In this document: in pieces, positions 18,809-33,054 of the stretch | Numbering within the stretch: position 1 is the stretch's first letter | Layout: every line of letters begins with the position of its first letter | Origin: Chitinispirillales bacterium | GTDB lineage: Bacteria; Fibrobacterota; Chitinivibrionia; Chitinivibrionales; Chitinispirillaceae | Direction of reading: 5' to 3' | Length of the DNA stretch: 34,913 bases | NCBI GenBank assembly: GCA_031281225.1 | Contig: JAITFQ010000007.1 | Coordinates: 1-34,913, forward strand | Made by a program: the position numbers and the translations under genes | Notes under the pieces: generated by a model | Told to the model about the DNA's origin: nothing | Seen by the model: only the letters and a program-made list of their open reading frames with translations | Database searches by the model: none

Positions 18809-19540
18809 TCATTCAACCACAAACGAAGCCGTTCCCAGTACCCGCCCTGTTCCGCGTTCCGTCACTTCCACTCTCCAATTCCCCGCCATCTCCGGCGCAC
18901 CAGCGAGGTTGCGCCGACTATGGGTGCGCCAGCTCGGGGATTTTACATGAAGGACGGATGTTTGTATGAGCTGTTCGTTGCGGTACCAGCGGTGTACGAC
19001 CGCCGTGGTATCGTGTGCGCCTGTCACGTGGGTGAAGTAGTATATTCCGCGCAGGTCTTTGGAGAATCTGTCGGATATGCCGTCTGGCATTTTATTTACA
19101 ATTGAGGCGCAGACAGCGGCCTTTTCGATTCTCAGGTTCGACGCCGTAGCCGCCGCGGGCCTTGGGGCCGCCGGTATCGGCGCAGGCGTAGGCGCGGGGG
19201 GTTGCGCCGCTGATTCCGGTTTGGTTTTAGTTTCTTGTGCCGCGGATGTTCGCGTGTTCGGTTCCAGCTCAATTTTTGGCAACCGCTCCGTTGACACCCG
19301 GGTTTCCAGTTCCCTGAGTCTAGGAATCTCCTGCGTTTTCGGCGACAGCAGCGGATCTTCTAACGGTACGCCGTCAGCCATGACGACGGGAATTTCTCCG
19401 TCTGCCGGCTTCTGCGCCGTGCGCGGTTGCTCGTAAGCGCTTTTTTCGGTTTTTTTGTCGGGAATTATGGCCTGGGCGATGAAAAACGAGGCTATCGCCG
19501 CGAAACAAATGATAATTACCGATTTGACACTATAGTTCAT
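18809..19540 (-). CDS. Membrane-anchored protein with C-terminal DUF2914-like domain
   Basis: N-terminal TM, Pro/Ala-rich linker, then VCASIVNKMPDGISDRFSKDLRGIYYFTHVTGAHDTTAVVHRWYRNEQLIQTSVLHVKSPSWRTHSRRNLAGAPEMAGNWRVEV. Confidence 0.75.
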   Translation of the reverse strand: MNYSVKSVIIICFAAIASFFIAQAIIPDKKTEKSAYEQPRTAQKPADGEIPVVMADGVPLEDPLLSPKTQEIPRLRELETRVSTERLPKIELEPNTRTSAAQETKTKPESAAQPPAPTPAPIPAAPRPAAATASNLRIEKAAVCASIVNKMPDGISDRFSKDLRGIYYFTHVTGAHDTTAVVHRWYRNEQLIQTSVLHVKSPSWRTHSRRNLAGAPEMAGNWRVEVTERGTGRVLGTASFVVE

Positions 19541-19686: not shown

Positions 19687-21381
19687 TTACATATAATTCG
19701 CAAGTGATGGCTGGATTACCCGCATCGCCGCTTGCAGCGCCGCGCTGTATACGTTTTCGGCTAGCAGCAATTTTGATATAACTTCCGCAAGGTCGGCGTC
19801 TTCCAGGGCCGATGATTGCGCCGATACTTCTACGAACTGCTCACCATTTCTTTGAAGCGTGAGCTCAAAGCGGTAGATGCGTGCGCCCATTTCGCTCTCG
19901 CTGTTGAGTATGGCGTCGTACATGGTGGAGAGTTCGTCAAGGGCGTGCTGGATGCCGTCGCGGTCGTCTTTGAGCAACGCCTGGCTGTAGCGCATGAACA
20001 CCCCTATCATGTCGTTCCCGCTTCTTCTGTCACGCAGCATCTCGTCGGCGCGCATGTTTATGGGGGCGGTGATCCCTTCTTCAATCGCTCTGAAAATTTC
20101 ACCATGACTCGACACCTTTTCGCCATATATGTCGGTGCCGCGGGTGATGTAGTCAAAGGTTATTTGAAGCTGCCCCGGCCTGTACATATTTTCGGGATCG
20201 CGGTGGTGTGGGTCCTCCGGGTTTTGGAGCCATTCCGGCCGCATATCGCGTAGCAGATCCATGTTGTATACGGTCATTTTACCGGTTTCATAGTCAATGG
20301 AGTAATCGAATTCGTTCTTGCCCTTGTGGTAAACGCCGTCGGCATCATAGAAACCGCCCTCATACTTGCCGAACCCCTCTACGAATTCCCTGTCGCCGAT
20401 TTTAATGCTGAACGAACCGGGAAAAATGTTTCTGATATCCTCGCCGAACTTTCCGTCTATGATCTGGAAAGTGTTGGTAAGGCTGTATTGGAGGATAGGG
20501 GCGGGGTCTCCGTCAATATTCGTGCCGCTGCCGTAAGTGTTATGGGAAATTCCAGTGAGCGCCACTCTATCGTGAGTAGGGGTGTTGTTCAACCGGTCGC
20601 GGAAATTTTCGCTCAGTATGGTCACTTCGCCGCTTCTGTAATCAATCGTGTAATCGATGCCCTTAGTAAATGTTTCCCCGCTGATGGTGTATTGCTCCAT
20701 GGGGAACGATTCCGGGAAGATGTGGTCAAGAGCTTTGCCGTGGATGTTGGGATTTGTGGCGCTGTCCCATGTCAGTTGCACCGTGTCGCCTATTTTCAAC
20801 TGCGACAAACTATAATTGAGATAGATCGTGTCGCCTGCCGTGTGATGGTCGGCGGCGTTTTGCAGGCTGATTTCAAGCTCTTGTCCGTAAGTTGCCATAG
20901 TCCTGTTATTGTAGTCGGGAAGATCTGCGCCCGATCGTTCGATTACGAAGGGCGGGGTTCTCGTATTTGTGCCGTTAAAGACGTAATTGCCCTTGAACTG
21001 TGTGTTAATCACCGACATCATCTGGCGGAATATTTGGTCAACTTCCTTCTGCATATACATACGGTCGCTGTCTGTATATGTGCCGTTCGCAGCCTGCACA
21101 GCGAGCTCTCTCGCCCTGTGAAGCAGCTCATTCATACTGCTCATGGCGCTTGAGGCCACGCCCATTACCGCCAGGCCGTCCTCAATGTTGCGCTTATACT
21201 GGCTGAGCTGCGTTTTTTTGGTGCGCAGCTTGATGGCGTTCGCTACGTCGATCGGGTCGTCGGAGGGTTTTCTGAGGCGCTTGCCAGTCGCGAGCTGCTC
21301 TTGCAGCGAGACCATGTCGCTGTAGCGGCGGCTCAGTTGGTTCTGAACATTTCTGTTTACGGTTACGAATGTTGTTCTCAT
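19687..21381 (-). CDS. flgL: Flagellar hook-associated protein 3 (FlgL), enlarged
   Basis: N-terminal NVQNQLSRRYSDMVSLQEQLATGKRLRKPSDDPIDVANAIKLRTKK...LAVQAANGTYTDSDR; C-terminal SSALEDADLAEVISKLLLAENVYSAALQAAMRVI; 564 aa because of a large central insertion. Confidence 0.94.
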   Translation of the reverse strand: MRTTFVTVNRNVQNQLSRRYSDMVSLQEQLATGKRLRKPSDDPIDVANAIKLRTKKTQLSQYKRNIEDGLAVMGVASSAMSSMNELLHRARELAVQAANGTYTDSDRMYMQKEVDQIFRQMMSVINTQFKGNYVFNGTNTRTPPFVIERSGADLPDYNNRTMATYGQELEISLQNAADHHTAGDTIYLNYSLSQLKIGDTVQLTWDSATNPNIHGKALDHIFPESFPMEQYTISGETFTKGIDYTIDYRSGEVTILSENFRDRLNNTPTHDRVALTGISHNTYGSGTNIDGDPAPILQYSLTNTFQIIDGKFGEDIRNIFPGSFSIKIGDREFVEGFGKYEGGFYDADGVYHKGKNEFDYSIDYETGKMTVYNMDLLRDMRPEWLQNPEDPHHRDPENMYRPGQLQITFDYITRGTDIYGEKVSSHGEIFRAIEEGITAPINMRADEMLRDRRSGNDMIGVFMRYSQALLKDDRDGIQHALDELSTMYDAILNSESEMGARIYRFELTLQRNGEQFVEVSAQSSALEDADLAEVISKLLLAENVYSAALQAAMRVIQPSLANYM

Positions 21382-21393
21382 TTTATACCTCCC

Positions 21394-21424
21394 GGTTACG
21401 CGGACGGCTCTGCCGCCCCTACGT
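21394..21424. repeat. Palindromic repeat copy between flgK and flgL
   Basis: Reverse complement reads CACGTAGGGGCGGCAGAGCCGTCCGCGTAAC; shares CGTAGGGGCGGCA with the 18330 copy. Confidence 0.6.
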
Positions 21425-21431
21425 GAAATTT

Positions 21432-23204
21432 TTACATGTTAAGTAACGTTTCAAGCATTCTGTCTACGGTCGTGATGAGCCTTGCCGCGGCCGTATACGT
21501 GTGCTGAAAACGGATTAGGTTGGCCATCTCCTCGTCGAGAGAGACGCCGGCGATCATGTCCTGCTGGGCCTCATACTGTTCGGCCAAAAATATGCGCGTT
21601 TGCAGGTTCGACTGCGCCTGATTTGTGTTGAGCCCTAAGCGGCCTATCACAGAGCTGAAATACTCGGCGAAAGTGGCCGTGGGGTTACCGATCGAGTCGG
21701 GCGTCATGGTCAGGCTGTTGCGCAGCTCGGCTATCAAAAGGGCGTTGGTGTTGTCGCCCGGCCCCTTGAACCCGCCCACAAAATATTGGAAATCAATATC
21801 AAACTCTTCGCCGTCATAACCGTCGTGCAGCATTTGGAAAGTGCCGAACGTGTAGTCTATGCGGTAATCCACGCCCTCGACTAGGACAATTCTCTCGTGC
21901 GGCTGCAGCGGCACGCCGTTTCTTGTTTTCACCGCTACCGTTACTGTGTCTGCGATAATGTTGCGCGCGTGTGTCTGAACCGGATTGCTTGGATCACGTA
22001 TCAGTTGCACGGGTTGATCGCCGAATTTGTAGCCGGGGTCGACGACATCCACGGAGGCGGGGTCACTCGGATCGGCTGGGGTTATTATTGTACCCGCGAC
22101 CCTGATTGTATTTTTCCCGGCGATTTCCGACTGGTGCGCCGTTGCTGCCGCGATGTTCTGGACGTTGCTGATGATTGCCGGCGCCAGCCTCATTGTGGCC
22201 GCTGTCGTATGGTTGGGGTCAAAGAAATTAAAACCGCTGTATCCTTGCAGGTTATACCCCTGCAGGTGCGCGTCATTGATGGTTTTTACGATGGCTGCCG
22301 CGAAATCATCAAGCTTTTTCTGATATTCGGGAATGTAGATATCCCGGCTGTCGATAAGCCCCCTGAGCTGCCCGCCCGTAGGCATAAAGTTGAGCTTGGA
22401 TTCCGAAAAGCGTATGCCAACATCCCGCAGTATCGTTCCGTCGGGCATCTCTCTTATATTGGTTGTCATTTCGAGGCTCTGCATGTAAGATGGCGCGATC
22501 AGCACGCTTCCGGCGGTGGTTACCGTTACCTGGCCGAGGTCGTTCTCAATCACATTAATCTCAATGAGCATCGAAAGTTCCTTGAGGAGCATATCGCGCC
22601 TGTCACGGCTGTCGTTTGCGTTTTGATTGCCGAGCTCTACCGCCGCTACTTCCTGGTTCAGGTTCATTATTTCGTAAGAAAGCTGATTTACCCTGTTTAT
22701 CCTCATCGGGATTTCATCGTTTTTTTGCTGGCGCAGGTTCGCGAGCTCAATCGCTGCTTTACGGAAATTGTCTATCATAACTTCTGCGTTTGTTCTCACC
22801 ATTGTGCGCGCCGAGAGGTCTTCCGGATTATTCGCGAGGTTTTGCCATGAACTGAAAAATTCGTCGAGGTAGTACATTATCCCGAGGTCGCTTGGTTCTA
22901 CGAGTATCGCTTCCATCCTGTTGAACGACGAGGTCACTTCTGCGAAGTAGCCGACTTCGGAATTTTGTTTTCTGATCTGCGTGTCGAGGAACGTGTTGCG
23001 CATCCGCTCAATGTTTACCACCGTCGCTCCGAGGCCCATCTGCCCGAAAGCGGAATCGTATGCGTAGAGCGTAGTCTGATTTATCCGCTTGCGCGAGTAT
23101 CCCGCTACGTCGGCGTTGGCCACGTTTTGGCCAGTAATGTCAATCCCGAGCTGCGATGTTTGCAGCGCGCGGCTTCCGACGTTTAATACGGACATGAGGC
23201 TCAT
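21432..23204 (-). CDS. flgK: Flagellar hook-associated protein 1 (FlgK)
   Basis: NVGSRALQTSQLGIDITGQNVANADVAGYSRKRI; C-terminal VSLDEEMANLIRFQHTYTAAARLITTVDRMLETLLNM. Confidence 0.96.
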   Translation of the reverse strand: MSLMSVLNVGSRALQTSQLGIDITGQNVANADVAGYSRKRINQTTLYAYDSAFGQMGLGATVVNIERMRNTFLDTQIRKQNSEVGYFAEVTSSFNRMEAILVEPSDLGIMYYLDEFFSSWQNLANNPEDLSARTMVRTNAEVMIDNFRKAAIELANLRQQKNDEIPMRINRVNQLSYEIMNLNQEVAAVELGNQNANDSRDRRDMLLKELSMLIEINVIENDLGQVTVTTAGSVLIAPSYMQSLEMTTNIREMPDGTILRDVGIRFSESKLNFMPTGGQLRGLIDSRDIYIPEYQKKLDDFAAAIVKTINDAHLQGYNLQGYSGFNFFDPNHTTAATMRLAPAIISNVQNIAAATAHQSEIAGKNTIRVAGTIITPADPSDPASVDVVDPGYKFGDQPVQLIRDPSNPVQTHARNIIADTVTVAVKTRNGVPLQPHERIVLVEGVDYRIDYTFGTFQMLHDGYDGEEFDIDFQYFVGGFKGPGDNTNALLIAELRNSLTMTPDSIGNPTATFAEYFSSVIGRLGLNTNQAQSNLQTRIFLAEQYEAQQDMIAGVSLDEEMANLIRFQHTYTAAARLITTVDRMLETLLNM

Positions 23205-23216
23205 ATTTTATCCCTT

Positions 23217-23723
23217 TCAAACCACTTCGTTAAATAGCGATACGTTACATCCGCCCGGCTTAAAGTCGCCCTTGTGCCGATATCCGGTTTTGGGGGCGGC
23301 CGATGCCTTTACCATCTCAATAGACGCGCTAATCCCGCCGAGCGCTTCCCTGAAAAACACAACGTTCGACGTATTAAGCGCTTTAAGTTTGCTTACGCGC
23401 TCCATAAGCGATGCTCTAGCTTCTTTCAGCCGTTCACGCAACCCCGGCTCGCACTGTTCGATAAGCGATATCATGCGCCCCGAAGGCGCTTTGTCGCTGA
23501 GTATATTTTGAAGCCGCCCGCAGACATCCAGCCGCCGCTCTTCCGCCTTTTCGAGACCGCAGATATGGTCGTCAAATATCGAGGACTTTCTTTGCAGCCC
23601 GTCGACGTCATTGCCGCGTGCGCAGTTGTTGATATCCTGCGCGATATTTATCAGGTTCTGATGGATATCGTTTTCCTGAGTTAGAAGCCCTAGAAGTTCA
23701 TTAAATAGAATTTCTTTCGCCAT
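23217..23723 (-). CDS. flgN: FlgN-like flagellar chaperone
   Basis: 168 aa predicted helical protein between flgJ-like and flgK genes; N-terminal LLGLLTQENDIHQNLINIAQD pattern as in FlgN family. Called mainly by context. Confidence 0.65.
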   Translation of the reverse strand: MAKEILFNELLGLLTQENDIHQNLINIAQDINNCARGNDVDGLQRKSSIFDDHICGLEKAEERRLDVCGRLQNILSDKAPSGRMISLIEQCEPGLRERLKEARASLMERVSKLKALNTSNVVFFREALGGISASIEMVKASAAPKTGYRHKGDFKPGGCNVSLFNEVV

Positions 23724-27642: not shown

Positions 27643-30261
27643 TCAGTGGGCGGCTTTCCTGTAAAGCGCGAGCCCTATAAAAAAGAAAATTACATTACCT
27701 ATCCACGCCCCCGCAAGAACGGGGATGTATCCGTTTTGGGCGAATACGAGCGCGAAGCGGCTCAGTATCCAGAACAGAAATGAGAGCAGAAGCCCCACGC
27801 CGAAAAGCGCCGCCCCGCCCCGCCTGCCCGCACGGGCCGAAAGCGACAGCCCGAAAAGGATAACGATGAAATTCATAAACGGCAGCGCGATCTTGAATTG
27901 CAGCTCCGCCGTGAACCTGTGCACCTTCTCGCCCCTGCGCTTGGCGGCCTCAATGTAGCTTGCCAGCTCCCAGTAGCTCATCGCTTCCTTCGACCTCACC
28001 CGCTTCACAATTTCGAGGGGGACGGTTGTCAGCACATCGTCGGGGAGCGTTGAAAATTTTTGGGTCAGTATGCCCTCTTCGGAGAACGTGTACGTCCGTC
28101 CGTTAACAAAACTCCAGCCCGCGTCGTCAAAATCCGATTCTGCCGCGATTACGCGCTCCGCCAGGCCGTCGCTCTTAAACGTGTAGCGGCGCACGCCCCG
28201 GAAGAATTGCGGCTCGGTGCAGAACTCATTAAAAACATACATAATGTCAGGCGCCGCAAAATAGAAAAAATTTCTTCGATACTCGCGGATAGTTTTTTGG
28301 GTGGATTGCGATTCCTCCTCCGGCGCCTTGCCGAAATTGCTTTGAAGCAGCGTACGCTGCTCATTTGCGTGCGGAATAATCATTTCGCCGCCGTAAAACA
28401 CGCCGCCCGAGAGCAGGAGCCCGAGGAAGAGGAGCGGCATGGTAAGCTGCCTGACATTCACCCCCGCAGCCTTCATCGCCGTGAGCTCGCTGGTCTTGGC
28501 GAGCCTGCCCATCGCAAACATTGAGGAGAGGAACAGGACGATGGGGAGCACCGTTTGGGCTATCCACGGCAGGTAGTAGTAGTAGAACATCACGGTTTGC
28601 AGATGTGTGGCGTTCTCGAATTTCCTCAGGTTGCCGACGTAGTCTATTGTGACGAAGATCACAAGCAACGCGATCAGCAGCCCAACCGCGTATCCCAAGA
28701 ACATCCCTATAAGATACGTAGGCAGTGTGCCGTTGATTTTATTGAGTATCAGCCGGGGGATTTTGAAAATCATCCCCGGCAGGCGGAATATCCATAAATT
28801 TGCGACGCGCTTGGCGAGCGTCCCGCTTTTTCCGAAGATGTTTTTTACAAATCCGAAGTTGATGGACGTTTCGCGGAGCATGAGGAACATGAGAATCAAT
28901 CCGCATATCGCAAGAAACACGTTGCCCGACCACATGCCGACGGCGGGGGATACTATGAGCTTGCCACCCATGTTTTCCCCGGCTATCAGGAATACCCAAT
29001 ACATGATGAAAAAGAATACCGAGTAGCTCGCGCCCACCGCGAGCCCGCCCCTGCGCGCCATGATTCCGAGCGGCGCGCCTATCAGCACAAATATGAGGCA
29101 CGCGGCGGGGATGGCGAACTTTTTGTGCACCTCGACCATCAACTGGGCGATTAGCAGGTCGTTGTTTTTTATGTTTGTCGTTAGCCTGCCGATGGTGCTT
29201 TCGTAAAGCCTGAGCCGGTTTATGGTTCTGCGGGCGGGGGCGGCGCCCGCGCCCTGATCGATTATGTTTTCCAGCGCGCCGACTGTTGGGATATTTTCAA
29301 CAGACGCCGTTTGGACATCGCCACGCCGCCTGTTTCCGCGCCCGCTTGGCCTGAGATCATCCTCGGTTAATTCCGATTCAATGCCGTGCAGTGATGTGAT
29401 GGCGCGGACGGAATCGATCGCCGCGTCGCGTTCCGATATCATACGTGCGTTCAAATTTCTGAATTCCCGCACCTCTTCCATCATCATCGATATGTTTTTT
29501 TCACGATTCCCGCGGGTGCCGGAACTCGTGCGTTCGAAGCGCGTGTCGACGTTTTTTATGTAGATGACCTGCTTTTTGAACCTGGCGAGGAAATAATTTT
29601 GGTCGTTCGCGCGGGAGGTGCTGTGTGTTTCGCCGTTGAACAGGGAGAGCTCCAGATACTCCCCGTCGTTGGTCATGCGGATGTTGCCCCTTTCGGCCAC
29701 CGTTATCATAGGGTCTTCCCCCGGCGCGTCCGAAAATATCCGTATGCCGCTCAGGTCGCCGCTCATAGGTTTTACATCGTCAACATATAGAACATAGTCC
29801 TGGAAATCTCTAATCAAGACCCCCGGTTCTATGAAGGCGGCCGGGCGCTTGCGGGCGATGTCCCCCAAAAGGTTTCCCGCGCGGTGGTTCGCCTCGGGCA
29901 GGATAAGGTCATGGAAGTAAAAAAGCGCTACCGTCACCACTGCCGACGCCGCCATCACAGGCAGCACCAGCGCGGACATATTGCGCCCCGACACCTTGAT
30001 AGCCGTAATCTCGTTGTCTCCGGCCATCCGTCCGAAGGTCATAAGCGTCGCGGAGAGTATTGCCATAGGTATCCCCAGCGCCAGTATCCACCCAAGCTGG
30101 ATAAGAAATACCTCGAGCACCACAATCGGGTCAATATTTTTAGACACAATCCGATCGAGCATCAAAATCGCCTGCTGCATTATAAGCAAAAAGATTATGA
30201 TGCTCAGCGAAGCAATAAACGGGAATATGTGTTCTTTGACGATGTATCTGTATAAAAGCAT
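27643..30261 (-). CDS. LPS export permease, LptF-LptG natural fusion
   Basis: 872 aa holding two consecutive YjgP/YjgQ-type units: MLLYRYIVKEHIFPFIASL...LGIPMAILSATLMTFGRMAGDNEITAIKVSG... and LPTYLIGMFLGYAVGLLIALLVIF...TVLPIVLFLSSMFAMGRLAKTSELTAMKAAGVNV.... Confidence 0.9.
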   Translation of the reverse strand: MLLYRYIVKEHIFPFIASLSIIIFLLIMQQAILMLDRIVSKNIDPIVVLEVFLIQLGWILALGIPMAILSATLMTFGRMAGDNEITAIKVSGRNMSALVLPVMAASAVVTVALFYFHDLILPEANHRAGNLLGDIARKRPAAFIEPGVLIRDFQDYVLYVDDVKPMSGDLSGIRIFSDAPGEDPMITVAERGNIRMTNDGEYLELSLFNGETHSTSRANDQNYFLARFKKQVIYIKNVDTRFERTSSGTRGNREKNISMMMEEVREFRNLNARMISERDAAIDSVRAITSLHGIESELTEDDLRPSGRGNRRRGDVQTASVENIPTVGALENIIDQGAGAAPARRTINRLRLYESTIGRLTTNIKNNDLLIAQLMVEVHKKFAIPAACLIFVLIGAPLGIMARRGGLAVGASYSVFFFIMYWVFLIAGENMGGKLIVSPAVGMWSGNVFLAICGLILMFLMLRETSINFGFVKNIFGKSGTLAKRVANLWIFRLPGMIFKIPRLILNKINGTLPTYLIGMFLGYAVGLLIALLVIFVTIDYVGNLRKFENATHLQTVMFYYYYLPWIAQTVLPIVLFLSSMFAMGRLAKTSELTAMKAAGVNVRQLTMPLLFLGLLLSGGVFYGGEMIIPHANEQRTLLQSNFGKAPEEESQSTQKTIREYRRNFFYFAAPDIMYVFNEFCTEPQFFRGVRRYTFKSDGLAERVIAAESDFDDAGWSFVNGRTYTFSEEGILTQKFSTLPDDVLTTVPLEIVKRVRSKEAMSYWELASYIEAAKRRGEKVHRFTAELQFKIALPFMNFIVILFGLSLSARAGRRGGAALFGVGLLLSFLFWILSRFALVFAQNGYIPVLAGAWIGNVIFFFIGLALYRKAAH

Positions 30262-30591: not shown

Positions 30592-31097
30592 CCACAATAT
30601 CAATTTCCGCAATAGGCCAGGACTCCCACCGCTTCGAACCAGCCGGTTCGCAAAAGCCGCTGATTCTTGGCGGCGTTGTCATTCCGGGTGCTTTGGGGCT
30701 TATGGGTAATAGTGACGCTGATGTTATTCTGCACGCGGTAACGAACGCAGTTTCCGGTATTTCCGGCGTCAATATACTTGGCAAAATTAGTGACGATTTA
30801 TGTCTTAATCAAGGGATAACCGATAGCCGTGTCTACCTTGAAAAAGCGATTGAAACGCTCGTGCCAAACCGATGGAAAATCATACACCTATCAATATCGG
30901 TCGAAGCTAGAAAACCACATTTGTCTGCCCACATTCCCGCAATAAAGCGCTCCGTTGCCTCATTGTTGTCACTCCCTGAAAGCTGCGTGGGATTGACGGC
31001 GACGACGGGGGAGGGGCTGACCGATTTTGGGCGCGGGGAGGGGGTGCAGGTGTTTGTTATAGCGTCGGCTGCTAAGGAAGTTACGGTAGCAACATAA
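30582..31097 (+). CDS. ispF: 2-C-methyl-D-erythritol 2,4-cyclodiphosphate synthase-like protein (divergent IspF)
   Basis: GQDSHRFEPAGSQKPLILGGVVIPG..LGLMGNSDADVILHAVTNAVSG; SISVEARKPHLSAHIPAIKRSVASLL; TATTGEGLTDFGRGEGVQVF. Confidence 0.85.
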   Translation: MPVTTISISAIGQDSHRFEPAGSQKPLILGGVVIPGALGLMGNSDADVILHAVTNAVSGISGVNILGKISDDLCLNQGITDSRVYLEKAIETLVPNRWKIIHLSISVEARKPHLSAHIPAIKRSVASLLSLPESCVGLTATTGEGLTDFGRGEGVQVFVIASAAKEVTVAT

Positions 31098-33054
31098 CCT
31101 TGCGCCTCTGCGTGTTTCTTCTGTTGGAGACCGGGTTTTGGGAGGTGGCGGATATGAAGAGCACGCCGGGGATTAAACGTCTGTTGGGATACCATTCCAC
31201 ACCGTTTTCGACCTTTCGAAACGCGTTATCCCTGGTGTTATCCCCATTATAATAGCCCAAAAACTTGCCGTCCGCGGTCATTATCCTGATTTCGGATATG
31301 TGGTTGCCGGATATGAGTACCGGATTTCGAGAACTGACTCTTACGACGTTGGGATAGATGTTTAGGGGCGTGTTTGGCGTCGTGTCCGGCGGTTCGATAA
31401 AATCGTTGATTTTCACGGTGACTCTGTTTTGATTCGCGCTCGCGTTTGTGACTACGAGGATACAGCGCTTTTTTTCTTTCCAGTCCGTGAGCGTGAAAAG
31501 ACCGCTTCCGTTTTGATTCATCGTTATTGGCACAATTCCGACGCTGTCGCTTCCGCCGCCTTCCATAACAAGTGCGCTCGCGCTCCATGTTTTGCCGGTC
31601 ATGTCGTTGTCTACTTGACCGTTTATACTTATAAGGAGCGTGTCGGGGTGGTCGGGTCGCGGTTCGTACAGTAGAAATATGGCTGAGTTGCGGTTTACGG
31701 TTACTGTCTCCGACCCTGCTGCTGGCGTTGTTGGGACAGCCCATGCGCGCATCAATTCGGCGTCGTTCACGAAAGCCCACGGGCGTCGCGCGCGGCTTCC
31801 GGTGAAGTAGCTCTCGGCGTGGAAGCCGTTGAGCGTTTCTGCCCAGCTTTTGCCGGCGTGGTTTTGGGAAACCCGCTCAATGTTTCTGTGAAAAGCCAGC
31901 GTTCTCTCGTTATAACTGTTGTACTGGATGGCTTTCACAAATCCGATGCTGTCTTCGGGGTTTGTTTTTTCGTATAGGTATTTGAGGAGGATTGAGTTCG
32001 CGTACATGTTGTTGCTGTTGTCAAAAAATGACATTCGCGGGTTCGTGAAAAATCTGCCTATGTACTGAATGTAGTCTTTTACTTCCGGAAACGCTACATC
32101 TTCCATGAGCACGGCCGAACCTTCGAGCCAACCGAAGGACAAATTATCCAACTGGCCATCCCCCCGAATTGTATGAACCATTGCGTACTGTACCGCGTGA
32201 AAGAGTTCGTGGGCGCAGGTCACCCGCACCGCGTCGTATGGCCGGAGATGGTAGCCAAGATCATCCCAGTCCGACCAGTCGCTGTTTATCTCTATGTAGC
32301 TTGAAAAACCTGGCGCGCCAGTTGTTTGCCTTGCGTAGGGCCACGTTACGCCGTAATAGTCATATAAATAACTGATTAGGACGCTGTAATGCGCGGTCGC
32401 CCCGTCCGCGTCGGGCGCGTTTATTGGCTCAATAAAGCCGAAGCGGTCTACGAGCATGGCCCACGCGCTGTCGAGCGCGAATGCCGTTTCGTCAATGTAG
32501 TCGGGGACGCCGTTTGACCACGGGCTCCGCACATGCCACGACGACGGGTCGTCGTTGGCTCCGTAGCCCATCGTATCGGTGAGGTTTACTGCGTTCATGC
32601 CGGACGTGGAGTAATAAATCTTAAACTTACCCGACGGCGATATATGGAACGTATCGTAATCTTCAGGGAGGATGTCCGTGGCCCTCCTGTAAAGCTCACG
32701 GAACTCCGGCGTCAGGTCGTCCCACATCCGCACAAGCGCAAATAGGTCTTGTTGTGTAGGGCGGACGGGCCGGCCTGTCGCGTGTGCGCCGTGTTGCTGC
32801 GTCCGCGTACCGCCGCGCCGGTTATTAACCCTCTCCTCAAAAAACGACCGGAACCTGGCCTCAATTTCGACCGGTGAAAGATCGTTGCCCCGCGCGTCAT
32901 TGATACTGACGCGTGACAAACCTTGAGCGTTACCGCTACGCTCACGTTCTTTTGCCTGTAGTGGGTATACGCAAAAAACGATCAGCAAGGCGGACAAAGA
33001 AACAATCTGCGGGAAACTATTTTCGGCAATGGTATGTTTTATTGATTTGCGCAT
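31081..33054 (-). CDS. Secreted putative zinc metalloprotease with T9SS-type-A-like C-terminal region
   Basis: Signal peptide; CAHELFHAVQYAM (HExxH) followed by SFGWLEGSAVLMED; C-terminal PLNIYPNVVRVSSRNPVLISG...GVEWYPNRRLIPGVLFISATS...RRKVMLLP. Confidence 0.8.
   Translation of the reverse strand: MRKSIKHTIAENSFPQIVSLSALLIVFCVYPLQAKERERSGNAQGLSRVSINDARGNDLSPVEIEARFRSFFEERVNNRRGGTRTQQHGAHATGRPVRPTQQDLFALVRMWDDLTPEFRELYRRATDILPEDYDTFHISPSGKFKIYYSTSGMNAVNLTDTMGYGANDDPSSWHVRSPWSNGVPDYIDETAFALDSAWAMLVDRFGFIEPINAPDADGATAHYSVLISYLYDYYGVTWPYARQTTGAPGFSSYIEINSDWSDWDDLGYHLRPYDAVRVTCAHELFHAVQYAMVHTIRGDGQLDNLSFGWLEGSAVLMEDVAFPEVKDYIQYIGRFFTNPRMSFFDNSNNMYANSILLKYLYEKTNPEDSIGFVKAIQYNSYNERTLAFHRNIERVSQNHAGKSWAETLNGFHAESYFTGSRARRPWAFVNDAELMRAWAVPTTPAAGSETVTVNRNSAIFLLYEPRPDHPDTLLISINGQVDNDMTGKTWSASALVMEGGGSDSVGIVPITMNQNGSGLFTLTDWKEKKRCILVVTNASANQNRVTVKINDFIEPPDTTPNTPLNIYPNVVRVSSRNPVLISGNHISEIRIMTADGKFLGYYNGDNTRDNAFRKVENGVEWYPNRRLIPGVLFISATSQNPVSNRRNTQRRKVMLLP

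Follow-up and report, generated by a model that had tools for sequence, protein, structure and literature searches.

The hook-filament junction proteins FlgK and FlgL of a Chitinispirillales bacterium (phylum Fibrobacterota; assembly GCA_031281225.1) share a short motif, DYxIDYxxG, in their central regions, and this locus raises the question of what the repeated element is and what it does at the junction. We analyzed positions 1-34,913 of contig JAITFQ010000007.1 (34,913 nucleotides; the window) within the draft genome, which comprises 2.57 Mb in 163 contigs. The best reading of the results is that the motif belongs to an ancient and duplicating beta-module that serves as domain D2 of both junction proteins.

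The junction proteins and their motif

The genes lie in the order flgJ-like, flgN, flgK, and flgL, and the features are as follows.

19687-21381, minus strand: flgL, hook-filament junction protein FlgL (TIGR02550), 564 aa, two module copies
20125-20475, minus strand: FlgL module copy 2, ancestral, residues about 303-419
20527-20787, minus strand: FlgL module copy 1, an extra copy, residues about 199-285, core 220-259
21432-23204, minus strand: flgK, hook-filament junction protein FlgK (TIGR02492), 590 aa, one module copy
21762-22016, minus strand: FlgK module, residues about 397-481
23217-23723, minus strand: flgN, FlgK/FlgL export chaperone (Pfam FlgN, 45.3 bits; cut-off, 30.5)

The scores of FlgK against TIGR02492 (351.8 bits; curated cut-off, 170.75) and of FlgL against TIGR02550 (238.3 bits; curated cut-off, 127.2) place both proteins in their families. 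FlgK_D1 (residues 95-328) and Flg_bbr_C in FlgK and Flagellin_N (10-140) in FlgL scored over their cut-offs, and Flagellin_C in FlgL scored 16.7 bits, under its cut-off of 23. The position of flgN beside flgK indicates from context that FlgK and FlgL are ordinary flagellar export substrates. Apart from their unusual outer domain, both proteins are ordinary members of the FlgK and FlgL families.

Elsewhere in the window, flgL is followed by a gene for a DUF2914 protein that has a stretch rich in proline and alanine (18809-19540); several relatives carry a second flagellin-like gene at this place. At 27643-30261 lies an 872-aa permease of the LptF/LptG family, more than twice as long as the Pfam model (353 positions); the model matches it in two stretches. 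A 657-aa protein (31081-33054) matches DUF6055 slightly under the Pfam cut-off.

In the six-frame translation of the window, DYxIDYxxG occurred exactly three times, twice in FlgL (GIDYTIDYRSGEVTIL, 20614-20661, and FDYSIDYETGKMTVYN, 20263-20310) and once in FlgK (GVDYRIDYTFGTFQML, 21828-21875), all on the minus strand and all where the earlier note had placed them. Shuffling of FlgK and FlgL gave 0.0001 motifs per trial. A degenerate DNA pattern of the motif matched the 2.57-Mb genome four times, namely at the three sites of the window and once in a 2108-aa SprA homologue on another contig, and the reversed control pattern gave 0 matches in the whole genome. A chance frequency of the motif, which the earlier note had regarded as fatal to its proposal, is therefore rejected by the shuffling and by the genome-wide count.

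Relation of the module to SprA

The module that has DYxIDYxxG at its core spans about 55-65 residues and has the strand order QL / SVxV / LxEG / DYxIDY / GxIxLL / IxVxFxY. Segments taken from the FlgL, FlgK, and SprA of relatives follow one common pattern in their alignment, the three parts of which are N-I-[IL]-x-G-[ST]-x-x-[VIL], G-x-x-[LFY]-x-E-[GN]-x-D-[YF]-x-[IV]-[DN]-Y-x-x-G-x-[IF]-x-[LI], and x-[IV]-x-[IV]-x-[FY]-x-[YR]; in the 30-row module alignment, no positions other than the D of DY and the G are invariant. Against the FlgK/FlgL module profile, residues 406-481 of FlgK scored 83.0 bits (the profile contains that very sequence), FlgL copy 1 scored 24.8 bits, and FlgL copy 2 matched in two pieces (14.4 and 28.5 bits).

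The profile-profile probabilities were 98.3% for FlgK versus FlgL, 97.9% for FlgK versus SprA, and 97.1% for FlgL versus SprA; the segments had been picked because they hold the motif, and these probabilities are therefore not equal to the odds of a blind search. When the nine motif columns were masked, the same comparisons gave 94.9, 94.2, and 82.8%. Against the FlgK and SprA profiles, 70-residue decoy windows gave maxima of 21% and 9%, respectively, and the high-scoring decoys against the FlgL profile overlapped the module itself. The recurrent beta module common to FlgK and FlgL that the earlier note had proposed is thus borne out. In favor of convergence on a short beta-hairpin motif, the signal of the divergent extra copies against SprA was largely lost on masking (4% and 42%), and a likeness confined to the motif is not disfavored for that comparison. 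It is disfavored for the main FlgK, FlgL, and SprA modules, which retained 83-95% when masked, and the blind match to a solved structure described below extends over 48 residues at an E value of 2.6e-9. We consider convergence improbable.

SprA, also known as Sov, is the outer-membrane translocon of the type 9 secretion system. The curated NCBI model identifies the 2108-aa protein as SprA (358.9 bits; cut-off, 200), and Pfam SprA_N also matches it; the SprA segment with the module was not recognized by Pfam and was recognized by NCBIfam. We searched the PDB (177,635 sequences) with a profile built from FlgK and FlgL modules only, with no SprA in the seed. The best match was Flavobacterium johnsoniae SprA (6H3I and 6H3J, residues 695-742) at an E value of 2.6e-9, and the next PDB entry had an E value of 0.27. 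When 17 single FlgK/FlgL modules were each compared with NCBIfam, the SprA model (TIGR04189) was matched by all 17, with a best E value of 5.2e-12. In the reverse direction, a SprA fragment used as the query against relatives retrieved SprA and, in several genomes, also FlgK or FlgL (E values, 1e-5 to 1e-3). In the module tree, the three families separate, with weak deep branches.

The homology of the FlgK, FlgL, and SprA modules is well supported by these sequence comparisons. The SprA segment concerned comprises residues 593-640 in the SprA of this genome and residues 695-742 in 6H3I. The earlier note had pointed to a resemblance to SprA, and the genome-wide motif search reached SprA unprompted; the resemblance is one of homology and concerns one defined segment of 50-60 residues rather than loose strings. 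SprA otherwise differs, being a protein of more than 2000 aa with a 36-strand outer-membrane barrel, and has nothing else in common with FlgK and FlgL. The outer domain of both junction proteins thus has a relative of solved structure in SprA. We found no paper on a module common to FlgK/FlgL and SprA in a literature search conducted mostly without subscription journals.

A second, weak module copy, LTENQDYTIDADRGWV, was observed in the SprA of this genome (L041, G000:C134) at residues 384-400 (6.9 bits), about 210 residues upstream of the main SprA module.

Position, distribution, and copy number

The D2 domains of junction proteins are usually regarded as variable decoration. Residues 4-329 and 480-589 of FlgK align with residues 3-330 and 449-552 of Salmonella FlgK and flank the module, which indicates that the FlgK module (about 397-481) occupies the place of D2. 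In both FlgK and FlgL, the module sits between the D1 halves, where other bacteria have a surface-exposed D2. At the junction, FlgK and FlgL expose their D2 domains (PMC12221982), which in Proteobacteria have a common beta-sandwich fold (PMC6155364).

The Fibrobacterota module and the D2 of other bacteria (4UT1, 5ZJ0) are therefore alike in their place and in being a beta domain common to both junction proteins (PMC6155364), whereas they have no detectable sequence similarity. In hhalign comparisons with FlgK and FlgL of other phyla the probability was 0.3-1.1%, and the module profile gave no match to the junction proteins of other phyla. The main evolutionary rival to our reading is that the module is an ordinary FlgK/FlgL D2 that has merely diverged, with the SprA likeness a general feature of such beta domains. 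The shared position, the beta-sandwich common to both proteins in Proteobacteria, and the contact of one module with a Pfam FlgK D2-like model (E value, 0.18) are consistent with this. Yet FlgK and FlgL of other phyla remain at 0.3-1.1%, and SprA of another phylum is found at an E value of 2.6e-9; we regard mere divergence as an unlikely account.

Matches to the FlgK/FlgL-only profile were found in 161 of the 168 Fibrobacterota genomes. Across the phylum, the module occurs in both FlgK and FlgL, the usual state being one copy each, and a SprA-sized gene with the module was found in most Fibrobacterota searched. Typically, the profile matched only once in each of the many genomes of one genus (g24), and the ORF concerned was about 2260-2450 aa long; the members sampled had no FlgL match. 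In three of these genomes (G040, G042, and G044) this match coincided with the site of the SprA match, and the other large ORFs of the genus are, to judge from their length, presumably SprA as well. When 30 further genomes were searched, matches in FlgK or FlgL, assigned by size and neighborhood, were found in a Fibrobacteres genome (G083) alone, and the remaining matches were judged from length and sequence to be other proteins. Among the genomes checked, the module thus marks the FlgK and FlgL of Fibrobacterota.

This distribution also bears on the idea that the common module reflects an interaction of FlgK and FlgL with SprA or the type 9 system, or their passage through it. A SprA with the same module is indeed present in this genome and in nearly all relatives. 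However, flgN adjoins flgK, SprA retains the module in Fibrobacter genomes without FlgL, and relatives of the module occur in phage tails. A direct link to type 9 secretion is very unlikely.

A single module is present in the FlgLs of about 402 aa from relatives; it aligns with copy 2 of the window, and copy 1 is missing from these proteins. Copy 2 contains a clade-specific loop of about 21 residues within the module. Two FlgL copies were found in the window and in its nearest sister (L042), and three or more in further sisters (L043, L044, and L045), with one L045 copy lying inside the loop of the last copy. FlgK has one copy, or two in L043, L045, and L073. The clade of the window has multiplied the module by duplication within FlgL and FlgK. 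The earlier note had described an inserted domain. Since the main module is conserved across the phylum and lies in the D2 position, this description fits only the extra copies, which look like recent insertions.

The extra copy in the FlgL of the window clusters with FlgL modules in the module tree. For the extra FlgL copies in two sister species, L043 and L045, the FlgK profile gave higher scores (51.3 and 42.6 bits, respectively) than the FlgL profile (29.3 and 25.2 bits), which suggests that the module has been exchanged between the neighboring flgK and flgL, a point that the module tree does not resolve.

We built AlphaFold models from 15 (FlgL) and 18 (FlgK) sequences. The mean pLDDT values were 73.8 and 67.2, respectively, and the values of about 55-91 in the module region are moderate. 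Strands were predicted at residues 229-232, 235-239, 243-246, and 251-254 of FlgL copy 1 (the last strand is missing in the model), at 324-327, 330-332, 359-362, 367-370, and 404-413 of FlgL copy 2, and at 420-424, 438-440, 446-449, 454-457, and 467-473 of FlgK. The strand order was identical in the three copies, which argues against the unrelated folds that the earlier note had named as a reason to abandon its proposal; the agreement is one of secondary structure only. Foldseek searches of the whole models retrieved flagellar proteins in the PDB and did not pick out the module, and nothing in the viral library was found below an E value of 0.001.

Phage tail proteins and the proposed role

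The module is also related, as far as sequence profiles can tell, to phage tail proteins, a relation absent from the earlier note. In the NCBIfam comparison, 16 of the 17 single modules matched the chi-like tail-tube model (NF052337, phrog_807) at positions 114-170, with a best E value of 3.9e-8; residues 419-474 of FlgK matched it at 2.2e-3. The best module scored 33.1 bits, under the curated cut-off of 60 bits for the family. By these scores, FlgK and SprA are not tail-tube proteins and are alike to them in one segment. When this genome was searched with the tail-tube model, there were matches at three sites, one each in SprA, in FlgK, and in an outer-membrane-like protein some 1100 aa long. 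The chi tail protein, of 381 aa, has a full-length match to YSD1_22 of 6XGR and is covered by the tail-tube model at residues 8-273. Its alignment with the module is weak (residues 165-201, 4.5-6.3 bits), and the phage link therefore rests on the family model. A tblastn search against phages gave only weak matches (best E value, 0.03). As to phage distal tail proteins, TIGR02217 was matched by 4 of 17 modules (best E value, 0.002) and DUF2460 by 10 of 30 (best E value, 3.4e-4), in every case far under the cut-offs, and perhaps the hairpin alone is common to these families and the module. The flagellum, type 9 secretion, and phage tail parts are thus linked by detectable sequence homology.

The 1100-aa outer-membrane-like protein (L164:4300-7602, G000:C141) is conserved and carries a weaker module copy at residues 235-287 (21.7 bits). 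It also has a weak DUF2460 match, and ORFs of similar length were matched in most relatives.

In the phage tail tube, domain 2 is wrapped around the adjacent subunits in the manner of a latch (PMC7385642), and the order of strands suggests that the region matched by the module would be this Ig-like domain. Because phage domain 2 latches adjacent subunits and the D2 of FlgL has been proposed to reinforce contacts between subunits (PMC6155364), we propose by analogy that the module probably clamps neighboring FlgK and FlgL subunits and stiffens the hook-filament joint. According to the moderate-confidence models, it would fold as a small Ig-like beta-sandwich or as part of one. It would pack against neighboring subunits and girdle the junction ring as domain 2 does the phage tube, and extra copies would thicken the girdle. 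We assign a probability of about 0.6 to this reading, in which a beta-module related to SprA and phage proteins, Ig-like in fold, forms the D2 of both junction proteins and clamps their subunits. It regards the outer domain of both as one conserved, duplicating module and provides a testable model for reinforcement of the junction. A bolder and rather doubtful extension is that one mobile latch module serves the type 9 translocon, the tail tubes of flagellotropic phages, and the hook-filament junction, and moves between flgK and flgL; the junction proteins would touch through homologous modules, the number of which would set the thickness of the girdle.

In the main functional rival to the clamp, the modules are display domains that bind a ligand close to the hook (chitin, cellulose, or a different polymer of the gut), a function also presumed for the Ig-like domains of adhesins and phage tails, and their copy number tracks the niche. 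The raised copy number in the genus of the window and in one neighboring genus, the weak profile matches to adhesins in the PDB (E values, 0.02-0.8), and the occurrence of related modules in surface proteins outside Fibrobacterota are compatible with display. However, the adhesin matches span only 20-30 residues, and the conservation of the ancestral copy across the phylum in both junction proteins fits a structural function better than a niche; we therefore hold display to be the less likely function, with a small share of the probability.

Large proteins with the pattern GPYxL..I..GSExVxVDG..L..G.DYTIDYxTGxIxF were observed in Armatimonadota and relatives (L166, L167, L169-L171, L174, L176, and L178), and the module may therefore have a wide distribution among surface proteins outside Fibrobacterota.
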